A program made the translations under genes and the position numbers. Below the pieces are notes generated by a model. The model saw only the letters and a list, made by a program, of their open reading frames with translations, searched no databases and had not been told where the DNA came from. Source: Ailanthus altissimus (Eukaryota > Streptophyta > Magnoliopsida > Sapindales > Simaroubaceae). From it: DNA of 64,000 nt. Each line of letters begins with the position of its first letter. Positions within the stretch are counted from its first letter, which is position 1. Location of the stretch: contig OX327699.1 in the NCBI GenBank assembly GCA_946807835.1, positions 2,225,001 through 2,289,000 of the forward strand, read 5' to 3'. Below, one piece after another: positions 3,701-24,780 of this stretch.

Positions 3701-3944
3701 ACTATCAAAAGAAAACACCATGTGAAGAAAACTGCATTTTTGGCAGAACAGGTAAGTGCAGTGATTGAACAAAAGACACCACCCAAGTATAAAAACCCAG
3801 GATGTCCCACAATCTCTTATCAAATTGGGACACATGAGTTTGGTCAAGCTTTATTGGACTTAGGAGCAAGTGTAAATTTAATGCCTTATTCTATTTACTT
3901 GCAATTGGGACTTGGTGAGATTAAACCAACATCTGTAGTCTTAC
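3701..3944 (+). pseudogene. protease N-terminal half of Athila-like element B (left of nested element C)
   Basis: Start of the pol sequence of element B. It encodes the linker and the first half of the aspartic protease, with the intact active-site motif LLDLGASVNLMPYS at about 3850-3890. It stops at 3944 where element C is inserted, and the same reading resumes at 13246 on the other side, through the second half of the protease. No gag lies between the upstream LTR end (3700) and this segment. C inserted after B was already missing gag, or the loss happened independently. Confidence 0.85.
3940..3944. other. target-site duplication of element C (left copy)
   Basis: The 5 bases CTTAC directly precede the left LTR of element C. 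The same CTTAC follows the right LTR at 13246-13250. Five base pairs is the usual Ty3/gypsy duplication length, and removing C plus one CTTAC restores the protease reading frame of element B. Confidence 0.93.
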
Positions 3945-6693
3945 TGTCACGCCCCAGACCCAAAAGATCCGACACACGACATCACTTACATTCATTCACT
4001 GCATGTGCACTCATAAATAATATTACACAAAATTTTCAACTTTCATTTCAATTTCTTTCAGAATTATAGCAATTGAATTATGACTGGGACAATTATTAAA
4101 CCGGAGATACGCAGAGTTTTCTCAGAGATTAACACTCTACTACGTCACCAGTAGCAACTTTGTTACCGGGAGCCCAGAATATATCCATTGCAAATTCTTA
4201 CTTAAAATCATCCAATAACCACACTTTATAAAACTTAAACCAAATCCAATCCACACACAATGAAATAATACATAAGTATTTATTCAATAGGGACAAACCA
4301 AATATCCTATCCCACGTGTCCCCAAATGAAACACACAACAACCTAGCAATTTAGGGAACCCAAGGAACAGCAGAAGCCTTGCCAAATCCGCTAAGCACAC
4401 ATGTACCTTATTTACCTGAAATCACCATAAACTATAATGAGTATAAAACTCAGTAAGCATACTAGTTTTTCATATATCAAATACAAATACATATATGTAC
4501 ACGATGCATATGTATGATATGCTGTGATCAATCAAAATCATAATCTTATCAAATCACATATCATGTAAGCGCTTACACATTCTTTCAAAACACATAATAG
4601 GAATACCATCACTCAACTACTACTTAGTAGGACTTACATATCACATATCACATAATGAGCCAAATGTCACTCGTAGGTGACATACCGTATGAGAGGAATA
4701 GTACAAGTGAGGTCTTTAAATCACACATATATAACGCTTATGCCCGAAGGTAAAAGCCAAACCCTCACCCTGATCATCGGTGAGTCCTCTCACATATACC
4801 AATACGCCACCACACGAATGTGATGACTCACTCTTCCTTTAGGTACCAATAGGATCCTCCCTACATACGGAACACATAACATATACCAATCCCAAAGGAA
4901 AGGCCACACATAAAGGCTCCACAAATCACATAAAATGCCTACTAAGTTAACAGTGAGTTCAAGTACCCTCAAACTACAAAATATTTCTCATGAACATATT
5001 ACACTTCAAAAGCTTTCTTTATTAAACACATCTTATTTTGAAAGCTCACTTACAAAAACACATGTATGTCCATGCTCAATGTCAATGCTCACATTCAGAA
5101 ACATATATTCACATTTCATATCAAAATATACTTTGACATAACATAAACATATTCTTAACCCCGTTTGCAAAATCATACAAAACAATTACTATGTTTATTG
5201 TGATTTCAGTAAAAAGTCTAGTATACTTACCTCTTAACACTTTCAGCTACAAGGCTTAAATCTCCTTAACCTATCAATGGAGATTAATCCTTTCATAAGC
5301 CTCACAATTCACACAAAATACTTTAAATAGCTTACAAAATTATACACAATGCATTTATCACATCAAATTGGTCTAAATATTTGGTTTCTCAAAACCTGTC
5401 ATTCTGACCACTTACACTTAACAAAAATTTCTAATACATCAAATGATGTCTAATTACTCCGAAATCAGAATATATCATTCTTGACTCATATATACTTCTT
5501 ATATATGAATATTATATCAAAATTCCTACACAATCCATTCCATACACACCATCGAATCCAAACTACAAACCTGACAGGATCAAGATACTTACTGAACAGT
5601 ATTCAATCTCCTAATTTTATAAAATCATATACTAACTCAAAAATTATAAAACTACCACATAATTACTCTTGACACATATCTCAGTCCATGATAAATATTT
5701 TGCTTCCAAATAACTGCCAAAAGTATTTTAAAACTATTTTATTTCATAACTTTAAAATTCTGTTAATCAAATACTACAATGAGCTGATACACTTTAGAAA
5801 TTCATAACACTTCAACCACATTGATCCAAATTCTCAATTCCGAGTATATCATATTAGACATATAAAATTATCATATTCCACAAATTCATAATTTTTAAAG
5901 ATCATTCAGCAGGTCAAAAATTATTTTCCACTGTATCATACTGTTTACACAGGAAATTTCCAGAATTCCAGGGTCATTTTGGTAAATTCATTACAAATTC
6001 AATTTCCGAGATTTTCAGTCGATTCAAAGTCTCAGATAATCCTAAACATGTCTAATTTCATATACTCAAAATTCAAAACCAGAATCGAATCACAACAATT
6101 TATAAAATTCCTAGATCAAGAGGTTATCCAGCAGAAATTCCATAATTCATCATGATTTATCAAACTATCTTATAGATCATCATCAATTCTCACAACATCA
6201 AACGAAATACACATCAAATCCTTAATTATACATATTTCCAGAAATAAAAACTTAAAGAAATTAACTTAATTAACACCAATAAATTGATAATTAGTTGTGA
6301 TATACCTCTAAAGATCCAAAATTCTCATTTTCTTCTTCTTTTTCTTCTTCTTCTTCTCTTTCTCTCTCCTTTATTTCTCTCTTCTCTCTCTAAAAATGGG
6401 TAGCTCGACCAAAATGAGAGAATTAGGGTTTTTAAAAGTGTATTTTTATACTAAGTGGTTAATTTTTGGTATTTACGAATTCACCCCCAAAACTTTCAAA
6501 GTATAACAATTTGGTCCCTAAAATAATTCCAAAGTCTTGCAAATAAACCCAATACTAATAGTATATCCTTAACCTATAAAAACACTACTAATAATAATAT
6601 ATAAATCAAGGATCACCCACATGCAAATAAAATACGTATATTTATATATATAAATATACATATTCTTACCGGTTATGGATACTGGTTACTACA
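3945..6693 (-). repeat. 3' LTR of element C (2749 bp)
   Basis: Begins TGTCACGCCCCAG and ends GGTTACTACA on the + strand, so it has TG...CA ends in either direction. It matches 10508-13245 at a constant offset of 6563 bases up to about 6450. It then has 11 extra bases (ctaagtggtta, 6451-6461) that the other copy lacks. I found no substitution in the stretches I compared by eye. It contains a CT-rich tract at 6330-6390. Small open frames inside it occur in both copies and have no recognisable product. Confidence 0.95.
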
Positions 6694-6707
6694 ATTCTCC
6701 CCTCCTT
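6694..6707 (-). other. polypurine tract of element C
   Basis: On the minus strand this reads AAGGAGGGGAGAAT and is directly followed by the LTR start TGTAGTAACC. It is the primer site for plus-strand DNA synthesis and fixes the orientation of the element. Confidence 0.88.
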
Positions 6708-7560
6708 ATAAGAATTTCGTCCTCGAAATTCATAACTTAAGCACATAGATGAGGATACTTAGATCTCATTTCTTCTTCTCATTCTCAATTTTCCTTTTCA
6801 ACTGTATAGTTTATTCATAAAACATTTACAAAGCAATCTTCCTTATATATAGGATTTGCTCATTGTGGTCCAAAATCCTAATAAATACTCATTGATATGT
6901 TAGATTATCTCTAAGTTGGCTCATAGCTGAGTATACGAGAGGAGTACGAAACATATATCCATAAAATAAACATATGACACACATTATGGACTTATAAAAT
7001 TATACACACATATTTTTATTCTTTTTTCCCATTCGTTCAATATTTAATGGGTATCTATACACTTCACCTTTCATTCATTAAAGAATAACATAGATGTAGA
7101 ATACCCATACTAATCTCTTACATAAAATTCTTAACTCCTTTAAAAATTTTAATCCCTTCAACATATACTCATACGTCATAATATCATTCACTACCTTGAT
7201 ATCATTAAAAAAAAATGTGGTATTTCTACGCAACTAAGTTGTCATTCAAATCAGAATATTGAAAGCATTATCTTAAACGATCAAAAATCAACTTCAATAA
7301 AAAGACCTTTAGTTCAACTGATTCTTAAACTATAGATCTTAACATTATATCTCTTACTTTAACTCTTAAAAAAAAATAGTCCACCTTATTGGACATCATT
7401 TTCTCATTGAGATTGACATGTCTGCTTTTTCTAATATGCTCGATTTCAAATAGAAAAGATTCTACTAGCACAATTACTGCGATGGCAAATATGATTCTTT
7501 TAACTATTCCTTTAACATCATCCACGTAAAAGGAAAGGACAAAACGATTATTGATTTTCT
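6708..7560. other. internal non-coding region of element C, with Tekay end remnant
   Basis: The first 35 bases keep the Tekay-type 3' end (minus strand GAGGACGAAATTC). The rest is AT-rich with only short open frames in both directions and nothing I recognise. The downstream end precedes the first antisense promoter (TATA at 7573). Confidence 0.5.
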
Positions 7561-7572
7561 TTCATAAAACTC

Positions 7573-7580
7573 TATAAATA
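7573..7580 (+). promoter_or_regulatory. TATA box of the first antisense cassette in element C
   Basis: CTCTATAAATAG, with TATAAATA 70 bases before the ATG at 7643. The same CTCTATAAATA word stands 60-70 bases before both LOG copies, at 9341 and 17683. A plant start site would be expected about 30 bases downstream, giving a short leader. Confidence 0.6.
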
Positions 7581-7642
7581 GCCTAAACCTCATAATCACT
7601 TTTTTAGCAATAAATAAAACCAACCTTCTTACCATCTTCATA

Positions 7643-8804
7643 ATGAATCCCATTATCATAACTCCTCATGTTCCTTTTTCTCCACCACAATTTCCAGACC
7701 TAATCAAAACCAGAACACTCCATTCCCGTGCCAAAGAATTCATCAGACACTATGCCATCTTAGCAGTCCAAGAACACGGCCTCACAGTTCTTGGTGGCCC
7801 TTTGTTCAACTTAGAATACCCTTTCTTTCACCTGCACTCTTTTTTCCCATTTTCCCAATGGTCCAAACCTGTCCTTTACTTGTTATGGTACCTGTTGGAT
7901 CTGTATACAATCGCCATGGAATTCCCATTACTTAGAACCCTCCAAAAATTAGAAAAATGTGATGAAGATCATCCAGCCCTGATTTTTCTCCAATGATTTT
8001 ACCCAAAGACATGGTGGATAACTAAATTTCAATACATGATTGCAAACAACACAAATGCTGCAGTCCCCAGACAACATCTTTGGTCAGTCTTACTTCTCCA
8101 ACGGAAGGGTATGATTATTTCAGATCACGAGATTCATTATTACCCCACTGTTAAGGATTACTTCACATTTACCCTTTCACTAAAGGGATCAATTAAGCTC
8201 TGGCCTGAAGAAGTAATTCAGCAAAAGAGAGAACTTGAAAGAATTCTTGCTCAGGAAAATCAAATAATTCCTCCGTCTGTTTGGATTTCCCCAGAAGATG
8301 CTGCACCTTGGGAACAAGTTGAAGCTGACTTTACAGAAGACCTGAATTTTTGCCAATATACTCAAATTCCAACAAAGACAAAAATATCATCTTTCACATC
8401 TCAGAAATACAGATTACTCTACTCATCATCACCATATCCCAAACATGACTTATTATGCCAAATACAGACAAGCAATGGATAACCTTCACCAATGGCCTCA
8501 GCTAACTGTCCCGACAGAACTTACCCAATCTCAGCCAGTTATCCCGACAGAACTTGACCAACACCAACCCAATCTTGACTTATCCCTCTTTCAAGACTCC
8601 CAACCTTATCCAACCGACACCCAAATCCAAGAGGAAGCCAGCACATCCCTCATCCAGACCAGCTCACCTGGAGAAGATCAAGATATGGTAGACCCACATT
8701 CCACTCCGCCAGAGCCCTCATTCAATGTATGGGAACAACAACTCCATAAGTTCCTCTCTCACGGATACGACACAGATGAAAGCGACCAAGGAGACTCATT
8801 TTGA
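7643..8804 (+). pseudogene. unknown protein gene carried antisense in element C, broken by one stop and one frameshift
   Basis: Three open stretches read as one protein of about 385 residues: 7643-7996, then 8036-8482 in the same frame past one stop at 7994-7996, then 8445-8804 in another frame. The N-terminal part is rich in aromatic residues (QWSKPVLYLLWYLLDLY, and a YPKTWW segment in the interrupted stretch). The middle has a charged helix (EEVIQQKRELERILAQ). The C-terminal 110 residues are rich in Pro, Gln, Ser and acidic residues and end DESDQGDSF. A TATA box lies 70 bases upstream and AATAAA follows at 8977, so it once looked like a complete transcription unit. I do not recognise the family. 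It is not gag, RT, RNase H or integrase. The frame damage could also be partly spliced out, but I see no convincing intron. Confidence 0.55.
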
Positions 8805-8976
8805 CCTACATTGCTGTTTCTATTTTCACAGAAACTAGATCCGTGTTGCTCTATCACATCAAAGAGAGACTGATTACTGCTTTATCTTTATGTCAAGTGT
8901 GCTTTATCTTTCTTCATATCTGCTTTTAATCTATCGGCCAAAAATTAATGTTAAGACCACAAAAGCTTTGTAATTA

Positions 8977-8982
8977 ATAAAG
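8977..8982 (+). terminator. poly(A) signal after the unknown ORF of element C
   Basis: AATAAA in taattaataaagttaa, 172 bases after the stop at 8804. It is suitable as the 3' end signal of the + strand cassette. Confidence 0.45.
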
Positions 8983-9340
8983 TTAATTTGGCCTCATGTC
9001 CAAAGTCCAATTGTTAGCTCAAAAAGTCTTCAAGTCATTGATGTATTGTCGACCATTAGTGCCAAAATGGCTAAGTCCCTAAATCCATGAAATAGGCCTT
9101 TATTGACTTTTCTTAATTATCTTACCTAACTTATCACACTTCCGACACAATTTTTTTTTTTATCACACTTACATATCAACATATATTTATTCAAGATTTT
9201 GCGACCTATTGTCCCTTATAAAATGATAAAGTAAAACTCATTCTCTTTTTTTTTTTTTTTTTACCTCACAAGAATCGAGAAAAATATATACTTGAACATA
9301 CTTACACATATGCTCCACAACTATTATCAATTTGTTTCTC

Positions 9341-9348
9341 TATAAATA
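9341..9348 (+). promoter_or_regulatory. TATA box of the intact LOG gene
   Basis: CTCTATAAATACA, TATAAATA 68 bases upstream of the ATG at 9409. The decayed LOG copy in element B has the identical CTCTATAAATACA 60 bases before its ATG. Both leaders also share GGTGAG just before the start, so promoter and leader were carried along with the coding region. The 530 bases upstream are AT-rich with poly-T runs at 9149-9161 and 9246-9262. Confidence 0.7.
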
Positions 9349-9408
9349 CATTATTATTGCATCCTTATACAAACTCAAAAATATTCAAAGATTAGGGTGA
9401 GCATAACA

Positions 9409-10062
9409 ATGGAGGAAACCTCAGCTCGTCGATTCACAAAAATTTGTGTCTTTTGTGGATCCAACCCTGGGAATACTGAAGAGTTTACAAAAGTTGCAGA
9501 AAATCTTGGTAAGGTATTAGCTGAGCGAAATATACATTTAGTATATGGAGGAGGTAACCGAGGGTTAATGGGGTCTGTGGCAAAAGCTGCATACAATAAA
9601 GGTAGTCGAGTTTTGGGTATTATTCCAAAACCTCTAGCTATTGAAAATATTGTAGGAAAAACAGTTGGGGATGAGTTACAAGTCTCATCTATGCATGAAC
9701 GAATGGCTCAAATGCTTAGGCATGTGGATGCTTTCATAGCTCTACCAGGAGGTTTCGGGACCTTGGAGGAAAATTTTCAAATTGTCTCATGGGCACAATT
9801 ACAAATCCACCAAAAACCCATTGGTTTGTTAAATGTTAATGGTTTTTACGACGGGTTGATATCTTTTCTTGACTATGCAGCGGGAACACAATTCATCCCA
9901 CTTCTAGCACGACGGATTCTTATTTCAGCTCCAACTGTTGATCAACTAATTGATCAATTACAGTCTTTTATTCCTCTGTCTAATCCAACATTGCATCAGT
10001 TAGATTGGTCTACTCATGACAGTCAGAAGAAGCGCAAAATAGACTTAAATCTCACTCCGTAG
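9409..10062 (+). CDS. LOG: LOG-type cytokinin riboside 5'-monophosphate phosphoribohydrolase, retrotransposon-borne
   Basis: Intact 217-aa protein of the LOG family, which releases active free-base cytokinin from the nucleotide in one step, normally in cytosol and nucleus. Seen here: N-terminal Rossmann start ICVFCGS (12-18), GGGNRGLMG (47-55), catalytic Arg98 in SMHERMAQM, and the signature PGGFGTLEE (113-121) with Glu121, the positions known for plant LOGs. The family's usual length is about 210-240 aa. The ATG at 9409 was chosen over the upstream GTG because it is the first ATG after the TATA box and matches the start of the second copy. Known plant LOG genes have several introns; this one has none, which suggests an RNA-derived copy. 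It lies antisense to element C. The tail KKRKIDLNLTP (207-217) combines a basic cluster with a DLNxxP-like motif. Family assignment is very sure; activity is inferred. Confidence 0.95.
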   Translation: MEETSARRFTKICVFCGSNPGNTEEFTKVAENLGKVLAERNIHLVYGGGNRGLMGSVAKAAYNKGSRVLGIIPKPLAIENIVGKTVGDELQVSSMHERMAQMLRHVDAFIALPGGFGTLEENFQIVSWAQLQIHQKPIGLLNVNGFYDGLISFLDYAAGTQFIPLLARRILISAPTVDQLIDQLQSFIPLSNPTLHQLDWSTHDSQKKRKIDLNLTP

Positions 10063-10116
10063 CCTCTATTGTATTTTTGTTGCTGCTATTGTTGTTGTGT
10101 TGTTGTTTTCCTTTTC

Positions 10117-10122
10117 AATAAA
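10117..10122 (+). terminator. poly(A) signal of the intact LOG gene
   Basis: AATAAA in ttttcaataaaagttg, 55 bases after the LOG stop codon and preceded by a T/G-rich run (gttgttgtgttgttg) of the sort found in plant far-upstream poly(A) elements. The following 360 bases to the PBS hold no gene I can see. Confidence 0.6.
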
Positions 10123-10486
10123 AGTTGTTTCAATTGATGTCTTCAATACTCTACTTCTCTATATTTTGTCATTGAGAAAATTTTCTCAATTTGCTCTATC
10201 ACATGCAAATTATCATTATAAGATATTCAACATCACTCTTACTAAGCATATTAGTCATAACTTAAAAGAAAATCTAAATGGTAACATTAAGATCCACAAG
10301 GTACCATTATCCACAACAACAACAATCTTAGCAGCTCTTGGATACTGTGTCATCTTCACAAAATCATATAAAATTTAAGGAATATGTCAAACTTTTACAT
10401 AACAAAGCTACAAATACAATCTTAAGGATTTGGCATCTGCTCGGTTCCCTTGACTCGACACTTAAAAGTCTACAGAATCATATCTT

Positions 10487-10500
10487 AGCTTTGATACCAA
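10487..10500 (-). other. primer binding site of element C
   Basis: The minus strand reads TTGGTATCAAAGCT, one base different from the tRNA-iMet-complementary TGGTATCAGAGC used by many plant LTR elements. It sits 7 bases from the end of the right LTR. It identifies that LTR as the 5' LTR and sets minus polarity. Confidence 0.85.
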
Positions 10501-10507
10501 TAAAAGC

Positions 10508-13245
10508 TGTCACGCCCCAGACCCAAAAGATCCGACACACGACATCACTTACATTCATTCACTGCATGTGCACTCATAAATAATATTACACAAAATTTTC
10601 AACTTTCATTTCAATTTCTTTCAGAATTATAGCAATTGAATTATGACTGGGACAATTATTAAACCGGAGATACGCAGAGTTTTCTCAGAGATTAACACTC
10701 TACTACGTCACCAGTAGCAACTTTGTTACCGGGAGCCCAGAATATATCCATTGCAAATTCTTACTTAAAATCATCCAATAACCACACTTTATAAAACTTA
10801 AACCAAATCCAATCCACACACAATGAAATAATACATAAGTATTTATTCAATAGGGACAAACCAAATATCCTATCCCACGTGTCCCCAAATGAAACACACA
10901 ACAACCTAGCAATTTAGGGAACCCAAGGAACAGCAGAAGCCTTGCCAAATCCGCTAAGCACACATGTACCTTATTTACCTGAAATCACCATAAACTATAA
11001 TGAGTATAAAACTCAGTAAGCATACTAGTTTTTCATATATCAAATACAAATACATATATGTACACGATGCATATGTATGATATGCTGTGATCAATCAAAA
11101 TCATAATCTTATCAAATCACATATCATGTAAGCGCTTACACATTCTTTCAAAACACATAATAGGAATACCATCACTCAACTACTACTTAGTAGGACTTAC
11201 ATATCACATATCACATAATGAGCCAAATGTCACTCGTAGGTGACATACCGTATGAGAGGAATAGTACAAGTGAGGTCTTTAAATCACACATATATAACGC
11301 TTATGCCCGAAGGTAAAAGCCAAACCCTCACCCTGATCATCGGTGAGTCCTCTCACATATACCAATACGCCACCACACGAATGTGATGACTCACTCTTCC
11401 TTTAGGTACCAATAGGATCCTCCCTACATACGGAACACATAACATATACCAATCCCAAAGGAAAGGCCACACATAAAGGCTCCACAAATCACATAAAATG
11501 CCTACTAAGTTAACAGTGAGTTCAAGTACCCTCAAACTACAAAATATTTCTCATGAACATATTACACTTCAAAAGCTTTCTTTATTAAACACATCTTATT
11601 TTGAAAGCTCACTTACAAAAACACATGTATGTCCATGCTCAATGTCAATGCTCACATTCAGAAACATATATTCACATTTCATATCAAAATATACTTTGAC
11701 ATAACATAAACATATTCTTAACCCCGTTTGCAAAATCATACAAAACAATTACTATGTTTATTGTGATTTCAGTAAAAAGTCTAGTATACTTACCTCTTAA
11801 CACTTTCAGCTACAAGGCTTAAATCTCCTTAACCTATCAATGGAGATTAATCCTTTCATAAGCCTCACAATTCACACAAAATACTTTAAATAGCTTACAA
11901 AATTATACACAATGCATTTATCACATCAAATTGGTCTAAATATTTGGTTTCTCAAAACCTGTCATTCTGACCACTTACACTTAACAAAAATTTCTAATAC
12001 ATCAAATGATGTCTAATTACTCCGAAATCAGAATATATCATTCTTGACTCATATATACTTCTTATATATGAATATTATATCAAAATTCCTACACAATCCA
12101 TTCCATACACACCATCGAATCCAAACTACAAACCTGACAGGATCAAGATACTTACTGAACAGTATTCAATCTCCTAATTTTATAAAATCATATACTAACT
12201 CAAAAATTATAAAACTACCACATAATTACTCTTGACACATATCTCAGTCCATGATAAATATTTTGCTTCCAAATAACTGCCAAAAGTATTTTAAAACTAT
12301 TTTATTTCATAACTTTAAAATTCTGTTAATCAAATACTACAATGAGCTGATACACTTTAGAAATTCATAACACTTCAACCACATTGATCCAAATTCTCAA
12401 TTCCGAGTATATCATATTAGACATATAAAATTATCATATTCCACAAATTCATAATTTTTAAAGATCATTCAGCAGGTCAAAAATTATTTTCCACTGTATC
12501 ATACTGTTTACACAGGAAATTTCCAGAATTCCAGGGTCATTTTGGTAAATTCATTACAAATTCAATTTCCGAGATTTTCAGTCGATTCAAAGTCTCAGAT
12601 AATCCTAAACATGTCTAATTTCATATACTCAAAATTCAAAACCAGAATCGAATCACAACAATTTATAAAATTCCTAGATCAAGAGGTTATCCAGCAGAAA
12701 TTCCATAATTCATCATGATTTATCAAACTATCTTATAGATCATCATCAATTCTCACAACATCAAACGAAATACACATCAAATCCTTAATTATACATATTT
12801 CCAGAAATAAAAACTTAAAGAAATTAACTTAATTAACACCAATAAATTGATAATTAGTTGTGATATACCTCTAAAGATCCAAAATTCTCATTTTCTTCTT
12901 CTTTTTCTTCTTCTTCTTCTCTTTCTCTCTCCTTTATTTCTCTCTTCTCTCTCTAAAAATGGGTAGCTCGACCAAAATGAGAGAATTAGGGTTTTTAAAA
13001 GTGTATTTTTATAATTTTTGGTATTTACGAATTCACCCCCAAAACTTTCAAAGTATAACAATTTGGTCCCTAAAATAATTCCAAAGTCTTGCAAATAAAC
13101 CCAATACTAATAGTATATCCTTAACCTATAAAAACACTACTAATAATAATATATAAATCAAGGATCACCCACATGCAAATAAAATACGTATATTTATATA
13201 TATAAATATACATATTCTTACCGGTTATGGATACTGGTTACTACA
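10508..13245 (-). repeat. 5' LTR of element C (2738 bp)
   Basis: Second copy of the LTR at 3945-6693, with the same ends. It lacks only the 11-base segment seen in the other copy; no other difference was noticed in the stretches compared. The CT-rich tract at 12893-12953 is GA-rich on the transcribed strand. Element transcription would start in this LTR and run leftward, opposite to the LOG gene. Confidence 0.95.
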
Positions 13246-13250
13246 CTTAC
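13246..13250. other. target-site duplication of element C (right copy)
   Basis: CTTAC directly after the right LTR, identical to 3940-3944. The following bases continue the protease of element B (LQLAD motif). Confidence 0.93.
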
Positions 13251-15204
13251 AATTAGCTGACTGATCAATCAAGAAACCACGGGGAATAGTAAAAGATGTT
13301 TTATTGCAAATTGATAAATTTTACTACCTTGTTGATTTCCTTGTTTTAGATACTCATTCTGTTGTTAAAATGGAGTAAAAAATCCTTCTTATTTTAGGAA
13401 GACCTTTTCTAGCCAATGTTAACGCTCTTATTAATTGCAAAAATGCTCTAATGAAATTATCTTTTGGGAATATAACTCTTGAGGTGAACATTTTCAATAT
13501 TGGCAAACAACCACGAGAAGAATATGAGTGCTATCATTCATATATAATAGACACATTTGTAGCAGAAGAAGCTTATAAAAATCATGGCTATGATTCTTTG
13601 AAAAACCTTTTCAATTTTGATTTTGAAGAATTGTATTATCCTGATGTAACAACTGATGTGTTTAGTATTTTTGACTCACAGGAAAAAGCGACTCGATTTT
13701 GCAGCCACGCTTTGAAGAGTTGCCACGAGAGAGGGAGAGACCAAAACCATCAAACCTCGAGACACCACAAGTTGAGCTTTCTCCACTGCCCAAAGGTTTG
13801 AAACACGCATTCTTGGGACCAGATGATACCTTTCCTATCATCATTTCTTCTGAACTTAGTGCTGAACAAGAGAAAAAATTGATAAAATTATTAAAAGAAC
13901 ATAAGTCTACACTAGGTTGGACTATAGCTGATATTAAAGGTATTTCTCCATTGATATGCTCCCATGGAATTCATTTAGAGGAAGGTGCCCAACCTCGTAA
14001 GGACCCACAAAGAAGACTTAACCCAACAATGAAAGAAGTAGTGAAGAAAGAGGTCTTGAAACTATTAGATGCGGGTATAATCTACTCAATTTTTTATAGT
14101 CAATGGGTAAGTCCAACTCAAGTAGTTCCTAAGAAATCTGGGGTCACTGTTGTTGAAAATGAGAATGGGATACCTGTTCCAACTAGGGTAGTAAGTAGTT
14201 GGAGAATGTGCATTGATTATAGAAAGTTAAACACAGCCACTAGGAAAGACTATTTTCCATTGCCTTTTATCGACCAAATTTTAGAACGTGTAGCTGGACA
14301 TCCTTTTTATTGCTTTCTTGATGGGTATTCAGGATATTACCAGATTGAGATAGCTATAAAAGATCAAGAAAAAACCACTTTTACATGCCCTTTTGGTACT
14401 TATGCTTTTTGTAGAATGCCATTTGGATTATGTAATGCACCAGCTACTTTTCAGCGTTGTATGTTGAGTATTTTCTCTGATATGGCTGAAAAAGGCATGG
14501 AAGTCTTTATGGATGATTTGACTGTTTTTGGTAATTCTTTTTATTTATGCCTACTTAACTTGAAATCTGTTTTGAGTAGGTGTGAAGAAAAAAGACTTGT
14601 GCTAAATTGGGAGAAATGTCATTTCATGGTATCTTTAGGAATTGTTTTGGGGCACATTGTATCTGAAAGAAGGATAGAGGTTGACAAGGAAAAAATTGAA
14701 TTAATCTCTAAATTACCTACACCTAAAACAGTAAAAGATGTCCGATTCTTTCTTGGACACGCTAGCTTTTACAGAAGGTTTATACAAAACTTTTCTGCCA
14801 TATCTAGACCATTGTGTAACCTTTTGCTAAAAGATGCAGAATTTACATGGACACAGGAGTGTGAGGAGGCATTCCGAACACTCATTGCCAAACTTACTAC
14901 CGCTCCTATCATGCAATCACCAGATTGGAACCTCCCATTTGAAATTATGTATGATGCAAGTAATTACGCTGTAGGAGCAGTTCTTGGGCAACGTAAGGAG
15001 GGAAAACCCTTTGTTGTTTATTATGCTAGTAGGACTTTGAATGATGCTCAAATGAATTACACTACTACTGAAAAAGAACTACTAGTTGTTGTTTTTGCCT
15101 TAGATAAATTCTGCTCTTATTTGATTGGTTCACCTATTGTTATTGTTACTGACCACGCAGCTCTTAAGTACATTCTTTCTAAGAGGATGCTAAAGCTCGT
15201 TTAA
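13246..15204 (+). pseudogene. protease C-terminus, reverse transcriptase and RNase H of element B
   Basis: Pol of the Athila-like element B after the C insertion. 13246-13450 completes the protease (GRPFL at about 13402) with in-frame stops near 13260 and 13376. From 13699 there is a 501-residue open frame. It holds an N-terminal linker, an RT with CIDYRKLN (about 14209), YCFLDGYSGYYQI, CRMPFGLCNAPATFQRC and the intact catalytic box FMDD (about 14506-14517), and an RNase H with YDASNYAVGAVLG, YTTTEKELL and TDHAALKY. A one-base loss near 15185 shifts the frame at the RNase H end. Codons of the active sites are preserved, so B decayed fairly recently compared with A and D. Confidence 0.92.
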
Positions 15205-16632
15205 TTAAGTGGATTCTTCTTTTGCATGAATTTGATTTAACCATCAAAGACAAGAAAGGCGTTGAAAATGTTGTTGCTAATCATCTATCCCGCCTTGAGT
15301 TCACTGACTCCGCTGATTTGCTACCCATTCGAGATGATTTTCCTGATGAACATCTTTTTGCTATAAGCCAAATACCTTGGTATGCACATATCATAAATTA
15401 TTTGGTTTGTGGTGAATTTCCATCTGACTAGAGTGCACAAGATAAACATAAGTTCTTGGTTAAGGTACATAATTCTTATTGGGTTGATCCATATCTTTTT
15501 AAATACTATCCTGACCAAATCATGAGACATTGCATTCCTGAAAGTAAAGTTTCTAGTGTCTTAAATTTTTGCCATAGTGCTGCTTGTGGTGGCCATTTTT
15601 CTATGAAGAAGACAGCTGTGAAAATTTTACAGTGTGGTCTTTACTGGCCCACTTTGTTCAAAGACACTAATAATTTTTGTCGTTCCTGTGAAAGATGTTA
15701 AACATTAGGTGCTTTATCTCGAAGAAATATGATGTCTCTTAACCCTATTCTTGTTATCGAGATATTTAACTGTTGGGGTATCGATTTTAGTTGTTGACTA
15801 TGTATCAAAATGGGTGGAGGCTGTAGCTTGTCGTACTAATGATAATACAACTGTGGTAAAATTCTTAAAAGAAAATGTGTTATCTAGGTACGGTACGCCA
15901 CGTGTCATCATTAGTGACCAAGGAATATATTTTTGTAATCGTTCTTTTAAAGCTTTGATGCGCAGGTATGGTGTTCTTCACAAAGTTTCCATTGCATACC
16001 ATCCACAGACAAATGGACAAGTCGAGCTAGCAAATAGAGAGGTTAAACAGATTTTGGAAAAGATGGTTAACCCGAATCGCAAAGATTGGACTCTACGCCT
16101 TTCTGATACATTATGGGCATATCGCACTACATACAAAACCATCTTAGGAATGTCTCCATACCGGCTTGTTTATGGGAAAGCTTGCCATTTACCTGTTGAG
16201 CTAGAGCATAAAGCTTATTGAGCTGTCAAAGCCCTTAACTTTGATTTAAATGTTGCAGGTCTCTAGAGAAAGTTACAATTGTCAGAAATAGAAGAGCTAG
16301 GAAATGACCCATATGACAACTCCAGAATTTACAAAGCTAAAATGAAAGTAGCTCATGATAAACAGATCTTAAGGAAACACTTCGAACCAAATCAACGGGT
16401 CTATCTTTATGATTCTCGATTGCATTTACACCTTAGAAAGTTGAGATCTCGATGGACTGGTCCATTTATGGTAAAGTACATTTTTCCTAATGGTGCTGTC
16501 GAAATAGAGGACCCCACTGATGGATGAACTTTTAAAATGAATGGACAGCGGCTAAAAAGCTATGTGGAAAAGGTAGACGACTCTATGTACCTAGGCGAGA
16601 TCCCTCTTGTGGATCCTGTCTATCATGCTTAA
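15205..16632 (+). pseudogene. integrase of element B, frameshifted and internally deleted
   Basis: Integrase region. It begins with the VVANHLSRLE connection (15270), then a zinc-binding H-H-C-C domain (CHSAACGGHF at about 15569; CRSCERC at about 15678). The catalytic core has IISDQG (second Asp), YHPQTNGQ, and the Glu in [10 protein letters not shown] at about 16010-16040. The short stretch after the first catalytic Asp is deleted near 15790. The [14 protein letters not shown] motif (about 16180) is typical of the Athila/Tat group. The C-terminal part ends at a TAA at 16630-16632. Stops at 15429, 15699 and 16219 also interrupt it. It once joined element DNA to the host genome. Confidence 0.88.
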
Positions 16633-16879
16633 TCAGGTTCAATCTATCTGTACCATATTTTATATTTTGTCTATATTTTATCTTTTGACTTTTTATTTTT
16701 GCTTTTATTTTCTTTCACATTTTATTTTACTTTATTTTCTTCTTTTTATTTTTTCTTCAGTGTGATTTTATTTCCCGGTCAAGTGGCGGATATGGTACTC
16801 CGTGACTATTAAAGTCGATTTCTCAGTTCCCTAAAAACTATCCCTCAAACTGTGCATTCATCTCTTTCTTTCTTTCAAA

Positions 16880-17384
16880 ATGGATCACATTCTTGCCAAC
16901 CTTAAAAAATGTTTTCCTTCATTGCCTCAAAATGCTCTACTTAAGATTTACAAAGCACGGTGTGAAAGACTAAGGCTATTGATGTTGGGTAATATCCCTG
17001 TGGATCTTCGTTGGTTAATTGAAGCCAAGGTTCAATTATCTGGTGAGTTTGTAAATGATTTTGTTTCTCATATGCCTGGTCTTGGAAGAAGCTCTTATGC
17101 CAAAGTGACGAGCAAAGAGGTTACAAGTCTGTCATAAATGTGCTCGATGGAATTGTAACCGGAGTTATCGTTCTTTAGGATTTGCATCTAGAAATTGAGA
17201 AGACAAAATTCGGTTCATTAAGGATGGACTGAGTAAGGAGTCTTTGGATAATATCCTATTGACTCTTGAGACGCATCCCTGTGGGCTCGTGCAACGAGAA
17301 CTTCTCGATTTATGGAACAAATTCAAAAATGAACATCAACGGTATAGTCTTCGGAATCTGACTCTAAAAGACCCTGTTTGCTAA
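16880..17384 (+). pseudogene. small cysteine-motif ORF between integrase and LOG in element B
   Basis: About 168 codons, broken by one frameshift near 17120 and one stop (TGA near 17197). The first part (16880-17120) reads MDHILANLKKCFPS and then a helical segment, ending in GLGRSSYAK. The continuing frame starts LQVCHKCARWNC and runs to EDKIRFIKDGLSKES and a stop at 17382-17384. The order GRSxYAK, then C-x2-C followed by another Cys, then FI-x-DG recalls cysteine-rich nucleic-acid-binding proteins of flexuous plant viruses. The match is weak and from memory, so it is only a hint. It has the same strand as pol and lies about 250 bases after it. It is not an Athila env-like ORF as seen in element D. 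Confidence 0.45.
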
Positions 17385-17682
17385 TTTATAAGAAAATTGG
17401 ATAGGAAGCCTATCCTTGACCCATAGAGGGCGTTTAAGCCGTTACTAGACGTAAAACCAGAGGAAGATGTGAGCCATAATCACAACTACTTTGTAAATAC
17501 ATGTGTTTTAATTTCAAAGTTTATTTTATGAATAGTATGGCTACTCATGTAGATGTCTTAAATTCAAATCTTTTTGTTCAATAATGCATGTGGGTCATTA
17601 TGCTTAAATTTTTGTGTTTTATTTGTAACTCTCTTTTGACAAACTGTCAGGTTACCATAATCATTGTTATCATTTGGTACTC

Positions 17683-17690
17683 TATAAATA
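17683..17690 (+). promoter_or_regulatory. TATA box of the LOG pseudogene in element B
   Basis: CTCTATAAATACA, 60 bases before the LOG ATG at 17743, identical to the TATA region of the intact copy. It implies an own promoter inside the retrotransposon rather than readthrough from the LTR. Confidence 0.65.
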
Positions 17691-17742
17691 CAGCACCTCA
17701 TTTTCTTCATTTTCATATATTGAGATAAAGGTGAGTGTAAAT

Positions 17743-18390
17743 ATGGAGGAAACCCCAGTTCAACAATTTTGAAATATATGTGTATTTTGTGGATCTAGTC
17801 CTGAGGAGAGTAAAGTGTTTGTAAAAGCAGCAAACAATCTAGAAAAAGCATTAGCTGCAAGAAAAATTCATTTGATTTATGGAAGGGGTAGCCTTGGGTT
17901 AATGGGGTGTGTGTCAACAGCTGCACATTTAGAAAGAAGTCCAGTTTTAGGTATTATTCCTACAGCTTTAGCCGTGGAAAACCTGACCGGGAAAACAATA
18001 GGGGAAGAATTACGAGTCTCATCCATGCATGAACGTATAGCTAGAATGCTTTGCAATGCAGACGCTTTTATTGATTTACCAAGTGGTTTTGGTACCTTGG
18101 AAGAAATTTTTCAAATTGTCTCTTGTGGCCAACTAAATATCCATCAAAAACCCATAGGTTTGTTGAATGTTAATAACTATTTTGATTGCTTACTTTGTTT
18201 TCTTGATCAAGCTGTGAAATAGAATTTTTTTTCACATTCGGCACGACAGATCCTGGTTTCTGCTACTGAGGCAGATGAATTGATTAACAAATTACAGGCA
18301 GTTACCTACAAACCTGACCCAGCAATAACTCGGATCGATTGGTCAATGGGCTTTAACAAGCGAAAATTGGATCTGACACTTCCTTTGTAA
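17743..18390 (+). pseudogene. LOG: second LOG-type cytokinin-activation gene, decayed, inside element B
   Basis: A 648-base reading of 215 codons plus stop without any frameshift, interrupted only by TGA at 17770-17772 (codon 10) and TAG at 18220-18222 (codon 160). It aligns over its full length with the intact copy at 9409, at roughly 60 percent residue identity by eye. Both share SSMHER and QIHQKPIGLLNVN-like stretches that differ from the common plant LOG wording. Signature residues have drifted: GRGSLGLMG for GGGxxGLMG and PSGFGTLEE for PGGFGTLEE. It is intronless and in the same direction as element B, between integrase and the 3' LTR. The tail NKRKLDLTLPL again has a basic cluster followed by an LxLxL motif. 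Few lesions mean it was probably functional until fairly recently. Confidence 0.9.
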
Positions 18391-19740: not shown

Positions 19741-21215
19741 TGATGAACACATGAAAATACATATTTGTTAAGAGATTCAGTCACCATTTAATATCACTAA
19801 TTTTAGCATTTTTCGTATTTTTAGCTTGAAATAAAGTGTTCTCCTTAAATTATGATTAATGAATGTTATTTGGATAGGTTTAGGTAAAATGGACATAACT
19901 CTCAATGTAGAAATTAAAATGAAGAAATTCTTGAACCTGGTGCAACATGACTCAATCTTACACAAATTTTAAGAATAGTAGAAAAGCCAAATCCAACATG
20001 TTATGGGCAAAAAATTGAGATACAATAGAATCAGGCTATAACTTCTGCCCAGCTTGACCCAACTCACGTATGTGGATCGTATCCCACAAAATACATACTC
20101 AATTGGTATAATTCTTGAAGCTGTGAAATGCTGACTTAATTATCAACAACTCGTATGTTGATGGTAAAGTGCAAATCAGCCGTTATCATGGACCAAATTG
20201 TATTACAAATGGGTAAAAAGGTTGTTGGCTGAAATCTGATGTATCGTTGGAAATTTGCTAATATCTCATTGGATACTGATCCAATTTGTGCAAACTCAGT
20301 GCCTATGGAAAGAAGAGACAAAATGCTACAACTTTCATGTCGGTCACAAAGGCTATATCAGTTATTTATATTATAAAAAATATGCTACAACTAGATGAAT
20401 GAGTTATTGGCCTAAAAGTATTAAAGATTGATGTCATCCATGACATATTGCCATTCATTGCCTATATAAGGAGACTCTTAGGACATTTTCAACATTAGAT
20501 AATTCTCTCTTCTTTTCTTTTCATTAACATCCATTGTAATTTAGGCTAAAATTTTTGGCAAGGCTAAGAGATGAACTTTTATGTGTAATAACTCTTATCT
20601 AGTTTATTTTTCATAATCCAGAGGTTATAATTCTCATGTCTCATATATGTTCAGTCATGCTTTTCTTAGGTGATTCTTGTTGAATTATAATTGTTATTGG
20701 TTACATTATTTTATATGTTAATCTTTTACTGCAATATTGTCAAATTGATATATTGTCGATCTTGGATAACATGTAAGGGTAATAAATGTTTGATATTCAA
20801 GTTGATCTTTTACTGCAATATTGTCAAAATAATATATTATTGATCTTAGATAACTTGTATAAATAAACATGATTTGTGTTAATATTTGCAAAAGAGTTTA
20901 GTCATATCCAATGTATGTGTTATCAAATGTGCTATATTTTACATATCTTTCGATTGATTGTTTAGATGTAAAACTGGCAATTGAGTTACAAACATTGAAT
21001 TAAAGTGTAGAGTAGGTTTATAAAGCATAATTGTGATTCTCGAAGCCTTGTTTGAATTATCATAAGACATTTCCTTCAAATCATAGACAATTCCATCTCA
21101 TCAACCTATTTTTATCATTTGCTACCTCTTTAATATTTTACTTCACCAACCTATTTTTCCAAGAGCTTCCTCGTGGGATCGACACCTCAATCTATACTGT
21201 GATAGCCGCGTTATA
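19741..21215 (+). repeat. 3' LTR of element B (right end approximate)
   Basis: It starts TGATGAACACATG after a purine tract, like the D LTR (TGATGAGTATG). It has a TATA-like TATATAAGG at 20463-20471 and ends with the Athila-type U5 phrase CCTCGTGGGATCGACACC at 21170-21187. The exact end is not clear because no PBS follows; the next recognisable sequence is protease code of element D near 21462. The estimated length of about 1.5 kb matches the D LTR once its nested insert is removed. Confidence 0.6.
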
Positions 21216-21461
21216 TTTTGAGCGTAAACAACTGGATGTTATGGTGTCCAGCCATGGGCGCCGTAGCATTTAGGCTTGAACTACCAATTCATCTTTTTTC
21301 ACTATCTTGTGTTCGTTTCGCATCTATTTTTTCTTGAATCTTCACGCATTGGTTAGTAAACCTATATATGATCAAAAATAAAAAATAAATAACCAAAATA
21401 CTCTTAATTTAGAGCAAAACTTAAGTCTAAAATGATAGAAATAATAGTATATATAAACCTA

Positions 21462-24400: not shown

Positions 24401-24780
24401 TTGGTTTATGGGAAAGCATGTCATTTGCCATTCGAGCTAGAGCATAAGGCATATTGGGCGATTAAGACCTTAAACTTTGATGCTCAAGCTATCAGAGAGA
24501 AACATTTGCTTCAACTTCATGAGTTAGATAAATTTTTGCTTCAAGCTTATGAAAACACCAAGCTTTACCACGAAAAGACTAAGAAATGAAATGATAGAAA
24601 GATTGCACATAGAGAATTTCATCCTGGACAATGGGTATTATTGTTTAACTCTCCTGTTGAAACTTTTCTAAGAAAGGCTTAAGTCAAGATGGTCCGACCC
24701 ATTTCAAGTCACTTAGGTGTTTTTTTATAGAGCTATTGAGATTGCAGATGATGAGGACAAGTAATTTTTTAAAAGTAAAT
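21462..24780 (+). pseudogene. pol remnant of Athila-like element D
   Basis: Heavily decayed pol with many stops. In order: protease C-terminal half (VDKFIFP and VLDMDKD wording, 21490-21600), linker (21860-22110), RT from about 22120 with FCMDYWKLN near 22395 and FMDEF in place of FMDD near 22700, RNase H (YDASDQDIGAVLG at 23100), a zinc-domain trace near 23760-23900, integrase core ([12 protein letters not shown] at 24030; IISDEG at about 24150), and [15 protein letters not shown] at about 24415. The catalytic RT aspartate change alone makes it inactive. No gag is found between the B LTR and this point. Confidence 0.85.

Follow-up and report, generated by a model that had tools for sequence, protein, structure and literature searches.

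Introduction

Extra open reading frames (ORFs) are common in plant retrotransposons and for the most part unexplained. In the abstract of their 2011 study, Steinbauerova and colleagues reportedly mention a pair of Athila-like elements that resemble LOGL4. According to the available text of PMC6317226, 21.4% of the extra ORFs of plant retrotransposons resemble any known domain. A comparable case is the captured AlkB-type RNA demethylase of Phalaenopsis Gypsy elements, as described in portions of PMC9289625. There, as here, a host-type enzyme acting on N6-modified adenine became fixed in a retrotransposon lineage; it differs in enzyme class and in belonging to an orchid lineage, and its activity was shown in vitro whereas the LOG protein considered here is known from sequence. 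The sunflower Tekay, a chromovirus-type element in the accessible part of PMC11728184, resembles our element C in having an extra ORF of about 400 aa with predicted nuclear signals. Its ORF(+) lies on the 5' side, whereas element C carries two antisense ORFs, one of them LOG, and no pol.

The closest described elements contain LOG itself. LOG/YgdH extra ORFs in Gypsy elements of Citrus sinensis, C. clementina and Populus trichocarpa are mentioned by Alvarado-Marchena et al. 2022 (PMC9289625, citing Steinbauerova et al. 2011), so that a LOG-type domain within LTR retrotransposons had already been published. Among the matches listed in a literature search that covered few subscription works, we found no other account; PMC8087826, in the text available, treats LOG expression and Gypsy content separately. 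As far as the consulted portion of PMC9289625 goes, its account of the LOG domain does not place it in a lineage or count its copies, and is silent on a promoter, on changes in pocket or tail, on a NABP partner and on a move to a second element type. New here are the antisense LOG in element C, the gene unit shared by elements C and D, the pocket and tail changes, the ORF resembling a viral nucleic acid-binding protein (NABP) that precedes LOG, and purifying selection.

Compared with canonical plant LOGs (LOG1/3/4 and LOG8; structures 2a33 and 1ydh), the transposable element (TE) type has the same fold family, PGGxGTxxE motif and catalytic Arg and Glu, but is intronless and transposon-borne, has Lys100 and Glu125 replaced, and ends in a basic tail with LxLxL or DLNxxP. 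Elements B and D resemble the Athila lineage of Ty3/gypsy in the order gag-protease-RT-RNaseH-INT, in extra 3' ORFs and in showing no chromodomain or second RNase H among Pfam matches, the domain reading of D being limited to the integrase. Where the available part of PMC6317226 reports Athila ORF-1 in 16% of Athila elements, the extra ORFs of B and D are a NABP-like ORF and LOG instead.

Results

Anatomy of the locus

The DNA analysed, hereafter the window, is a 64,000-nucleotide stretch of the Ailanthus altissimus contig OX327699.1 (positions 2,225,001 to 2,289,000). It contains an Athila-type element, B, interrupted by a second element, C, the latter recognised by its LTR pair and CTTAC duplication (Table 1).

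Table 1. Features of elements B and C in the window (positions counted from its first nucleotide).
Feature	Position	Strand	Remarks
Element B protease-region remnant, left of C insertion	3701..3939	+	97% to Athila copy L049 5052-5295
Element C target-site duplication CTTAC, left	3940..3944	.	right copy at 13246-13250
Element C 3' LTR (element orientation)	3945..6693	-	99.6% identity with 10508-13245; 0 substitutions in 2738 aligned sites
Element C polypurine tract	6694..6707	-	AAGGAGGGGAGAAT on minus strand; same in 20/21 copies
Element C second ORF, antisense to element	7568..8801	+	broken in window copy
TATA-box-like CTCTATAAATACA of LOG C	9338..9350	+	also left end of homology with Athila D
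Gene unit shared with Athila D (TATA box, LOG, 3' flank with AATAAA)	9338..10173	+	blastn C vs L090
LOG C	9409..10062	+	intact, intronless, 217 aa; catalytic Arg98 and Glu121 retained; Met99 and Gln124 in pocket; tail KKRKIDLNLTP
Element C primer binding site	10488..10499	-	TGGTATCAAAGC in window copy; TGGTATCAGAGC in 19/21 copies
Element C 5' LTR (element orientation)	10508..13245	-	LTR comparison
Element C target-site duplication CTTAC, right	13246..13250	.	sequence
Element B reverse transcriptase and RNase H	13699..15204	+	PF00078, PF17919, PF17917
Element B integrase core	15751..16221	+	PF00665
Element B viral-NABP-like ORF	16806..17423	+	broken in window copy; tblastn with L049:8897-9517
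TATA-box-like CTCTATAAATACA of LOG B	17680..17692	+	exact in 19/21 B sequences
LOG B	17743..18390	+	decayed; sense to element B
Element B 3' LTR	19741..21231	+	matches both LTRs of Athila copy L049/L050

Both LOG genes recorded in the initial annotation were found where it had placed them. The intact one, LOG C, is a single frame between the two LTRs of element C, with a stop codon at its end only. It belongs to the LOG family by domain (PF03641, 6.3e-38, 130 bits against a cut-off of 27) and by fold, as judged from sequence matches to 2a33 (2.1e-61) and 1ydh (5.2e-56). The decayed one, LOG B, lies between the integrase and the 3' LTR of element B. Its 648 nt include premature stops at codons 10 and 160, with length unchanged relative to relatives, and PF03641 matches its open piece (1.9e-28); 7 of 21 B LOG sequences are intact. 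At the DNA level LOG C and LOG B are 75.6% identical over 455 aligned columns.

Assignment of B to Athila came by way of a sister copy with two LTRs (L049/L050), in which LOG occupies the same place. The LTRs of this copy are 97.9% identical, its gag-PR-RT-RH-INT domains lie in order, and neither a chromodomain nor an additional RNase H was found among the Pfam matches of its pol, two absences that the accessible text of PMC6317226 gives as marks of Athila. The single B copy fetched with long flanks (1/1) lies within an LTR element. Left of position 3701 of the window there is no same-direction match of at least 150 bp to the 5' half of the sister copy; hence the 5' part of element B is missing or rearranged. 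The order integrase, NABP-like ORF, TATA box, LOG is common to B and to a further Athila-type element, D. The NABP-like ORF (about 182 aa) passes the curated PF05515 cut-off of 23 bits in both types (32.5 bits in L049, B-type; 31.7 bits in L090, D-type), and the B-type ORF of L049 also passes that of PF01623. These are profiles of viral NABP and carlavirus cysteine-rich proteins, from which the ORF here, a putative relative, differs in being retrotransposon-borne. Among the works found that pair retrotransposons or Athila with carlavirus nucleic acid-binding protein, the only match concerned, in its available text, viral proteases.

The primer binding site and polypurine tract put element C on the minus strand, and LOG C is therefore antisense to it. 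The alternative of a sense LOG was rejected, as all 21 copies examined have both signals on that strand. The minus strand of C holds no frame longer than 110 aa, and the ORFs tested gave no element-type Pfam match, so that the pol with chromodomain expected of a Tekay was not found. TGGTATCAGAGC would fit tRNA-iMet, and the element ends and polypurine tract may be of Tekay-like style. The name Tekay-like, given in the initial annotation, has this primer-site and polypurine style as its sole basis. Of the 21 sequences compared, 15 have the second ORF of element C as a single frame that measures at least 395 aa from stop to stop; no Pfam profile matched it. LTR-like sequence flanks all 20 C copies fetched with long flanks on both sides, and the median LTR-LTR K of 21 copies is 0.0011, a figure that retains the value of 0.14 from one poorly aligned copy (L011).

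A TATA-like box and a gene unit shared with element D

The sequence CTCTATAAATACA occurs exactly twice in the window (9338 and 17680), with about 0.01 occurrences expected from base composition. It begins 71 bases (C) and 63 bases (B) before the ATG, close to the 60-68 bases initially given for a shared upstream motif, and it may serve as a promoter next to the start codon. Genome-wide, the 13-base box followed by a start codon defined 2,102 units; the reversed-pattern control gave 0. Host LOGs were sought by motif pattern (DNA for MHQRKAEMA), which gave 10 loci, instead of by an AtLOG8 protein query, for which the 150 scored of 5,595 candidates were single-frame, near full-length matches. Partial reading of two of the 10 host loci showed introns clearly interrupting one, and a sequence consistent with introns in the other.

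A blastn alignment of C with D (L090) spans 881 columns at 77% identity, its left end being the TATA box and its right end the final base of L090. The homology starts at the box and reaches at least position 10173, where the fetched D stretch ends. Upstream of the box C is unlike D, save for a 39-base match (82%, C 9154-9192 against D 1172-1209, E 2e-4). Since the likeness runs from the TATA box through LOG and not upstream, a self-contained LOG gene appears to have passed between elements, probably from Athila to element C. A joint origin of LOG and the second C ORF as one Athila cassette was rejected: in L049, neither gag or pol nor the NABP-like ORF matched the second ORF (best E 0.24).

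A single LOG lineage with altered pocket and tail

In the tree, C, B and D group with relatives from other plants, apart from the sampled LOG1/3/4 and LOG8 rows. The clade of 41 TE-type rows has support of 99/91, or 98/90 when the tail and pocket (trait) columns are removed. The rows were hand-picked from three lists of 120 entries, which supplied 37, 15 and 17 rows respectively, and the canonical types in the tree are LOG1/3/4 and LOG8, with LOG5/LOG7-type rows left out. Thus, the suggestion of one TE-borne lineage withstood the test of whether the copies part and fall beside canonical LOGs: C, B and D stay together and the canonical rows apart, with and without trait columns. Members come from several plant orders and have long open frames; they include an annotated LOG gene, Populus LOGL10. 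Identity between LOG C and the 240 canonical rows ranges from about 44% (worst row) to about 53% (best row). The 120 relatives used below are the best matches to LOG C and hence not a neutral sample of TE-type LOGs; copy number and names point to a TE context for those outside this genome.

The catalytic Arg and Glu, in PGGxGTxxE context, are kept in C, D and an intact B copy. Among the 120 relatives Arg99 is kept in 113, Glu122 in 116 and Trp129 in all, and the phosphate loop is retained in nearly all rows. Two other residues behave differently. Lys100 and Glu125 are both kept in 240/240 canonical rows; in the portion of PMC4979012 from which residue roles were taken, they are identical in AtLOG3, OsLOG, CpLOG and CgLOG and would belong to the prenyl pocket. 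Among the relatives Lys100 is replaced in 107 of 120 (Lys in 13) and Glu125 in 106 (Glu in 14), 101 of the latter having Gln or His. The corresponding residues are Met and Gln in C, and Ile and Gln in B and D; early-branching members, such as those of Xanthoceras, retain Lys and Glu. The same text reports almost complete loss of AMP hydrolysis on alanine replacement of AMP-site residues, among which it includes Lys100.

A C-terminal LxLxL is found in 98/120 relatives, preceded by a basic cluster in 95/120, as against 0/240 canonical rows for both. C ends in DLNLTP, which fits DLNxxP; B ends in LDLTLRL and D in IDLTLRL, with LTLRL. As sequence motifs these agree with the EAR consensus, LxLxL or DLNxxP, given in excerpts of PMC6283911 and PMC9956375. 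Short motifs of LxLxL type arise easily by chance; their constant C-terminal position here does not.

Selection on LOG

LOG is under purifying selection. Between B and D, dN is 0.23 and dS 1.94 (ratio 0.12). Among C copies found through their flanks (20 taken from the 40 that were listed out of 1,348 candidates), changes shared between copies were 9 nonsynonymous and 18 synonymous, and single changes 38 and 13 (Fisher p 0.0006), the variants scored as shared not being independent events. At one of these 20 loci (L060) LOG had no match at the expected place and another (L066) is rearranged; both were excluded from this count and L060 alone from the pN/pS count, which gave a pairwise 0.41 for the sample and 0.29 for intact copies. 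Divergence in the same sample, with L066 included, was 3.3% for LOG, 2.5% for 159 upstream bases and 7.3% downstream. The constraint is thus seen in the kind of change and not in its amount, LOG being no less divergent than the upstream bases. For B LOG the contrast between shared and single changes gave p 0.013. The B copies compared were 20 of the 39 non-window matches (rows 2-20 and 25) in a list that drew on 3,036 candidates and was ordered by similarity to the decayed copy in the window. The NABP ORF of B showed no such contrast (p 1.0; L075 and L079 excluded). A pN/pS of 0.097 and the low LOG divergence of 20 full C copies were not used as evidence because these copies came from a list ranked by LOG similarity. 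From the pattern of change in the copies, it would seem that LOG is both retained and used by the elements that carry it.

Discussion

The history that best fits these results would begin with a plant LOG becoming a resident accessory gene of Athila-type elements, between integrase and 3' LTR. The resident gene would have had its own TATA-type promoter by the ATG and, in B and D, would have stood behind the viral-NABP-like ORF. The TATA box and LOG, together with 110 or more bases of 3' flank, would then have moved as a unit from Athila into element C, in antisense; element C, which lacks pol, would have multiplied to high number very recently. We hold this anatomical and evolutionary part with high confidence, lowered slightly because the right end of the C-D homology coincides with the end of the fetched D stretch. 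As to function, retention of the catalytic pair makes it most likely that the protein is still a LOG-type nucleotide 5'-monophosphate phosphoribohydrolase, though one whose adenine/prenyl pocket has been reshaped and whose substrate may have changed. Nuclear entry and contact with TOPLESS-type corepressors would probably be the work of the tail. The net effect may be that, in the expressing cell, chromatin repression and signalling by hormones or nucleotides move to a more permissive state that favours proliferation, to the benefit of the element. This functional part is tentative, at somewhat less than even chances; taken whole, the explanation stands a little above even. A bolder version, which we consider doubtful, has the pocket rebuilt for a new N6-substituted nucleotide and joined to a nuclear TOPLESS-recruiting tail; together with a silencing-suppressor-like ORF it would form a two-gene Athila host-manipulation module whose LOG half spreads free-standing. 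An unusual cytokinin or N6-methyl-AMP as the new substrate is a guess.

The initial annotation called the release of active cytokinin by LOG established. For the gene considered here it cannot be assumed, given the changed base/prenyl pocket of C, B, D and most of the 120 relatives. Were the protein nonetheless to activate cytokinin as host LOGs do, it would raise active cytokinin wherever the element is expressed and so favour cell division and meristem identity, in the manner of tumour-inducing genes. The full-length match to both LOG structures, the retention of the phosphate loop, catalytic pair and Trp129 in nearly all rows, and the Lys and Glu of early-branching members speak for such activity, but C, B and D have all changed two residues invariant in every canonical row, and the alanine changes cited above are reported to nearly abolish AMP hydrolysis; we regard it as fairly unlikely. 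Rather unlikely, too, is that enzyme activity is absent or secondary, a nuclear protein with basic tail and EAR-type end titrating TOPLESS and so loosening repression of element or host genes. The LxLxL end is found in most of the 120 relatives and in none of the canonical rows, C fits DLNxxP, and pathogen effectors that bind TOPLESS are described in the available text of PMC8126959 and PMC7446885; a pure scaffold, on the other hand, would have no need of the catalytic Arg and Glu, both of which are kept, and TOPLESS binding is predicted from the motif.

That LOG might be passive cargo, copied without benefit to the element, its low dN/dS reflecting youth or few source copies, agrees with the very young age of element C, with the decay of many B copies and with the finding that, in the C copies located through their flanks, LOG has diverged no less than the bases upstream of it. 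It is harder to reconcile with a B-D ratio of 0.12 at a dS of about 1.9, with the excess of synonymous changes among those shared by C copies, and with long open frames in a clade spanning several plant orders, and we judge it improbable. Least credible, to the point of being hardly worth entertaining, is that these are host genes, a LOG subfamily that the plant retains for its own purposes and that was mobilised by chance. Some relatives are indeed annotated as LOG genes, but the 2,102 units across the genome, the constant place inside LTR elements of copies fetched with flanks, and the separation of the clade from the sampled canonical rows all argue against it.

Whichever function applies, the lineage can be traced by its pocket changes, recognisable tail and promoter-like box; its reaction chemistry is known, selection on it can be measured, and it has probably moved between two kinds of element. 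It makes the benefit of extra ORFs to their elements a question for the bench. An Athila context for the Xanthoceras annotation P0002 is weakly suggested by 46 gag-like residues that lie between the two LOG pieces of that annotation (E 3e-4). Some annotated LOG genes may in fact be transposon copies, as with Populus LOGL10, and would inflate counts of the LOG family.

LOG-bearing elements of the window

The window maps to C17:2225001-2289000 of an assembly of 939 Mb in 37 contigs. Element C, an LTR element, is inserted in the Athila-like element B and flanked on both sides by a CTTAC duplication; its two LTRs are 99.6% identical, with no substitutions. These boundaries enclose an intact LOG gene (LONELY GUY, a cytokinin-activating enzyme family), as the initial annotation had claimed, and its report of a decayed LOG within element B likewise stands, the reading frame being interrupted at codons 10 and 160 and followed by the 3′ LTR of B. 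The internal region of C measures only 3.8 kb, and no minus-strand frame above 110 aa was found in the element, so that C is without pol. Since C reads on the minus strand, its LOG lies antisense to the element. A second antisense ORF forms a single frame of at least 395 aa in 15 of 21 sequences; counted from the Met of MNPIIIT, it spans 375-397 aa in the 12 open copies. Pfam and PDB searches with this ORF gave no match; its C-terminus is acidic and pN/pS among the open copies is 0.45.

Positions of features in the window and in two copies elsewhere (L049, sister copy of B; L090, family D). NABP-like ORFs resemble viral nucleic-acid-binding proteins; all three directly precede LOG in Athila elements, and those of L049 and L090 exceed the Pfam viral NABP cut-off.
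Feature	Position	Strand	Remarks
Element C	3945-13245	minus	LTRs 2,749 and 2,738 bp, terminal duplication
C primer binding site	just inside LTR	minus	TGGTATCAGAGC in 19/21 copies
C polypurine tract	end opposite primer binding site	minus	
Second C ORF	7568-8801	plus	antisense to C; broken in window copy
LOG C	9409-10062	plus	intact
B NABP-like ORF	16806-17423		broken in window copy
LOG B	17743-18390		decayed, premature stops
B 3′ LTR	19741-21231		
NABP-like ORF, B sister copy	L049:8897-9517		
NABP-like ORF, family D	L090:1380-1937		
Athila-like remnant	22393-24481		second stretch resembling RT and integrase regions of B
Inverted repeat	29361-30113		arms 286 nt, 87% complementary, spacing 181 nt
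Element remnant	39448-43823	minus	short terminal repeats; Pol_BBD, SH3_retrovirus
Direct repeat pair	46697-47600		242 nt, 97% identical, 662 nt between
Series of long ORFs	48637-52637	plus	

Element B retains remnants of protease, RT/RNase H and integrase. In its sister copy on contig C12 (L049/L050) the two LTRs are 97.9% identical and the gag-pol frame is interrupted by one stop. A 182-aa ORF there matches Pfam Viral_NABP (1.1e-7) and Carla_C4 (1.6e-6), and an intact LOG lies in sense orientation ahead of the 3′ LTR. The single copy representing D, a third, Athila-like family, repeats this arrangement of integrase, NABP-like ORF (2e-7), TATA-like motif and intact LOG. The NABP-like ORF of B is intact in 9 of 21 sequences. 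Carlavirus-type cysteine-rich proteins are described as suppressing silencing and determining symptoms, one of them inducing hyperplasia (PMC12172455). The pairing of an NABP-like ORF with LOG in one Athila element suggests a possible host-manipulation module.

A single lineage with altered pocket and tail

Among the best 120 relatives of LOG C, one row is 99% identical and the rest 58-74%. Species names include Reevesia (36 rows, spread over 15 differently numbered chromosomes), Xanthoceras (9), Populus (5), Paulownia (3) and Diplodiscus (2); 65 rows are nameless. Of these genera, Reevesia and Xanthoceras belong to the malvids and Paulownia to the lamiids. Copy number and names lead us to infer that relatives beyond this genome are also transposon-borne. 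In trees with 15 LOG1/3/4 and 17 LOG8 rows, 41 transposon-type rows form a single clade (support 99/91), which persists at 98/90 without the tail, catalytic and pocket columns. The single lineage proposed in the initial annotation was thereby recovered.

PMC4979012 proposes Arg99 and Glu122 (CgLOG numbering) as the catalytic pair; the adenine is held by Met96, Lys100 and Glu121, and the inferred prenyl pocket consists of Met96, His97, Lys100, Glu125 and Trp129. The 120 relatives largely keep Arg99 (113), Glu122 (116) and Trp129 (120). In 107 rows M, L or I stands in place of Lys100, and in 101 Q or H in place of Glu125 (another residue in 5), whereas both are unchanged in 240/240 canonical (LOG1/3/4 and LOG8) rows. 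The changes are coupled: 101 rows carry both replacements, pairing a hydrophobic residue with Gln or His, 13 keep Lys with Glu, and 6 belong to neither class. His97, retained in C, B and D, is lost in 57. A C-terminal LxLxL occurs in 98/120 relatives versus 0/240 canonical rows, the tail of LOG C terminating in DLNLTP. LxLxL is absent from 12 of the 13 Lys/Glu rows; since the exception, P0006, branches between the two groups in one of the trees, the tail may have arisen before the pocket change. Either LxLxL or DLNxxP defines an EAR motif (PMC6283911, PMC9956375), and we infer that the transposon-type proteins could undergo nuclear import and bind TOPLESS.

Copy number, age and selection

A genome search for the TATA-ATG unit, CTCTATAAATACA-N40-70-ATGGARGR, yielded 1,001 + 1,101 = 2,102 units, versus 0 for the reversed pattern. 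Spacing among the 94 sites listed on contig C1 was of B type (71) in 19, C type (78-79) in 52 and D type (84) in 23. The canonical motif (DNA encoding MHQRKAEMA) occurs at 10 loci. Two were read in part: one has introns either side of the motif exon, and in the other homology starts after CAG and stops before GT, consistent with splice borders. Of 6,214 candidates for LOG C, the best 150 were scored; every one of these is full-length and 148 are stop-free.

The LTR-LTR distance of C has a median of 0.0011 (21 copies). At a substitution rate of ~1.3e-8 per site and year, the copies would date back some tens of thousands of years. Same-strand LOG pairs 6.4-6.7 kb apart (e.g. C18:21863081 and 21869530; C10:13839934 and 13846488) fit LTR-internal-LTR-internal-LTR tandems arising by recombination.

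Between B and D, dN/dS is 0.12 for LOG (dN 0.23, dS 1.94) and 0.20 for NABP; for LOG between C and D it is 0.37. Integrase gives dN 0.20 with dS saturated. Copies of C were sampled by a flank 600 bases from LOG, including the window copy and excluding L060; LOG was intact in 15 of these 20 sequences. With L066 also excluded (19 sequences), changes in at least two copies numbered 9 non-silent versus 18 silent (per-site ratio 0.15), and single-copy changes 38 versus 13 (0.88; Fisher p 0.0006), one shared and one single stop lying beyond these counts. LOG of B showed the same direction (0.43 versus 1.19, p 0.013); the contrast was absent in the B NABP-like ORF (0.53 versus 0.52, p 1.0). Such a pattern is expected if source copies are constrained and inserted copies are free to decay. 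Against this, divergence of LOG in the flank-found sample is not below that of its upstream flank.

Probable transfer of the LOG unit

Likeness between C and D starts at the first base of the TATA-like motif (9338) and reaches at least 10173, the position aligned with the final base of the L090 stretch. Upstream of the motif they are unlike, except for one 39-base match (82%) distant from it in D. This match (9154-9192 versus L090:1172-1209) lies outside the LOG unit and could reflect low-complexity chance. LOG dS is 0.44 between C and D, versus 1.94 between B and D. On the simplest reading, an ancestor of C took the unit from a D-like Athila element; the entire integrase-NABP-LOG layout common to B and D makes the reverse movement, from C into Athila, less likely.

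That Gypsy elements can carry LOG is itself known: PMC9289625, which cites Steinbauerova et al. 2011, reports LOG/YgdH domains in Gypsy consensuses of Citrus and Populus. Among the literature matches listed there was no further account of LOG in LTR elements, and none of the lineage and how far it has spread, of the modified pocket and tail, of the probable transfer, together with a putative promoter, into an antisense, pol-less element, or of the NABP pairing. In PMC6317226 extra ORFs were included only if they had at least 250 codons, a threshold at which transposon LOGs and NABP-like ORFs would be passed over.

Other features of the window

The remnant with Pol_BBD and SH3_retrovirus domains derives from a copia-type element. 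The long ORFs at 48637-52637 gave no Pfam match and resemble the exons of a host gene.
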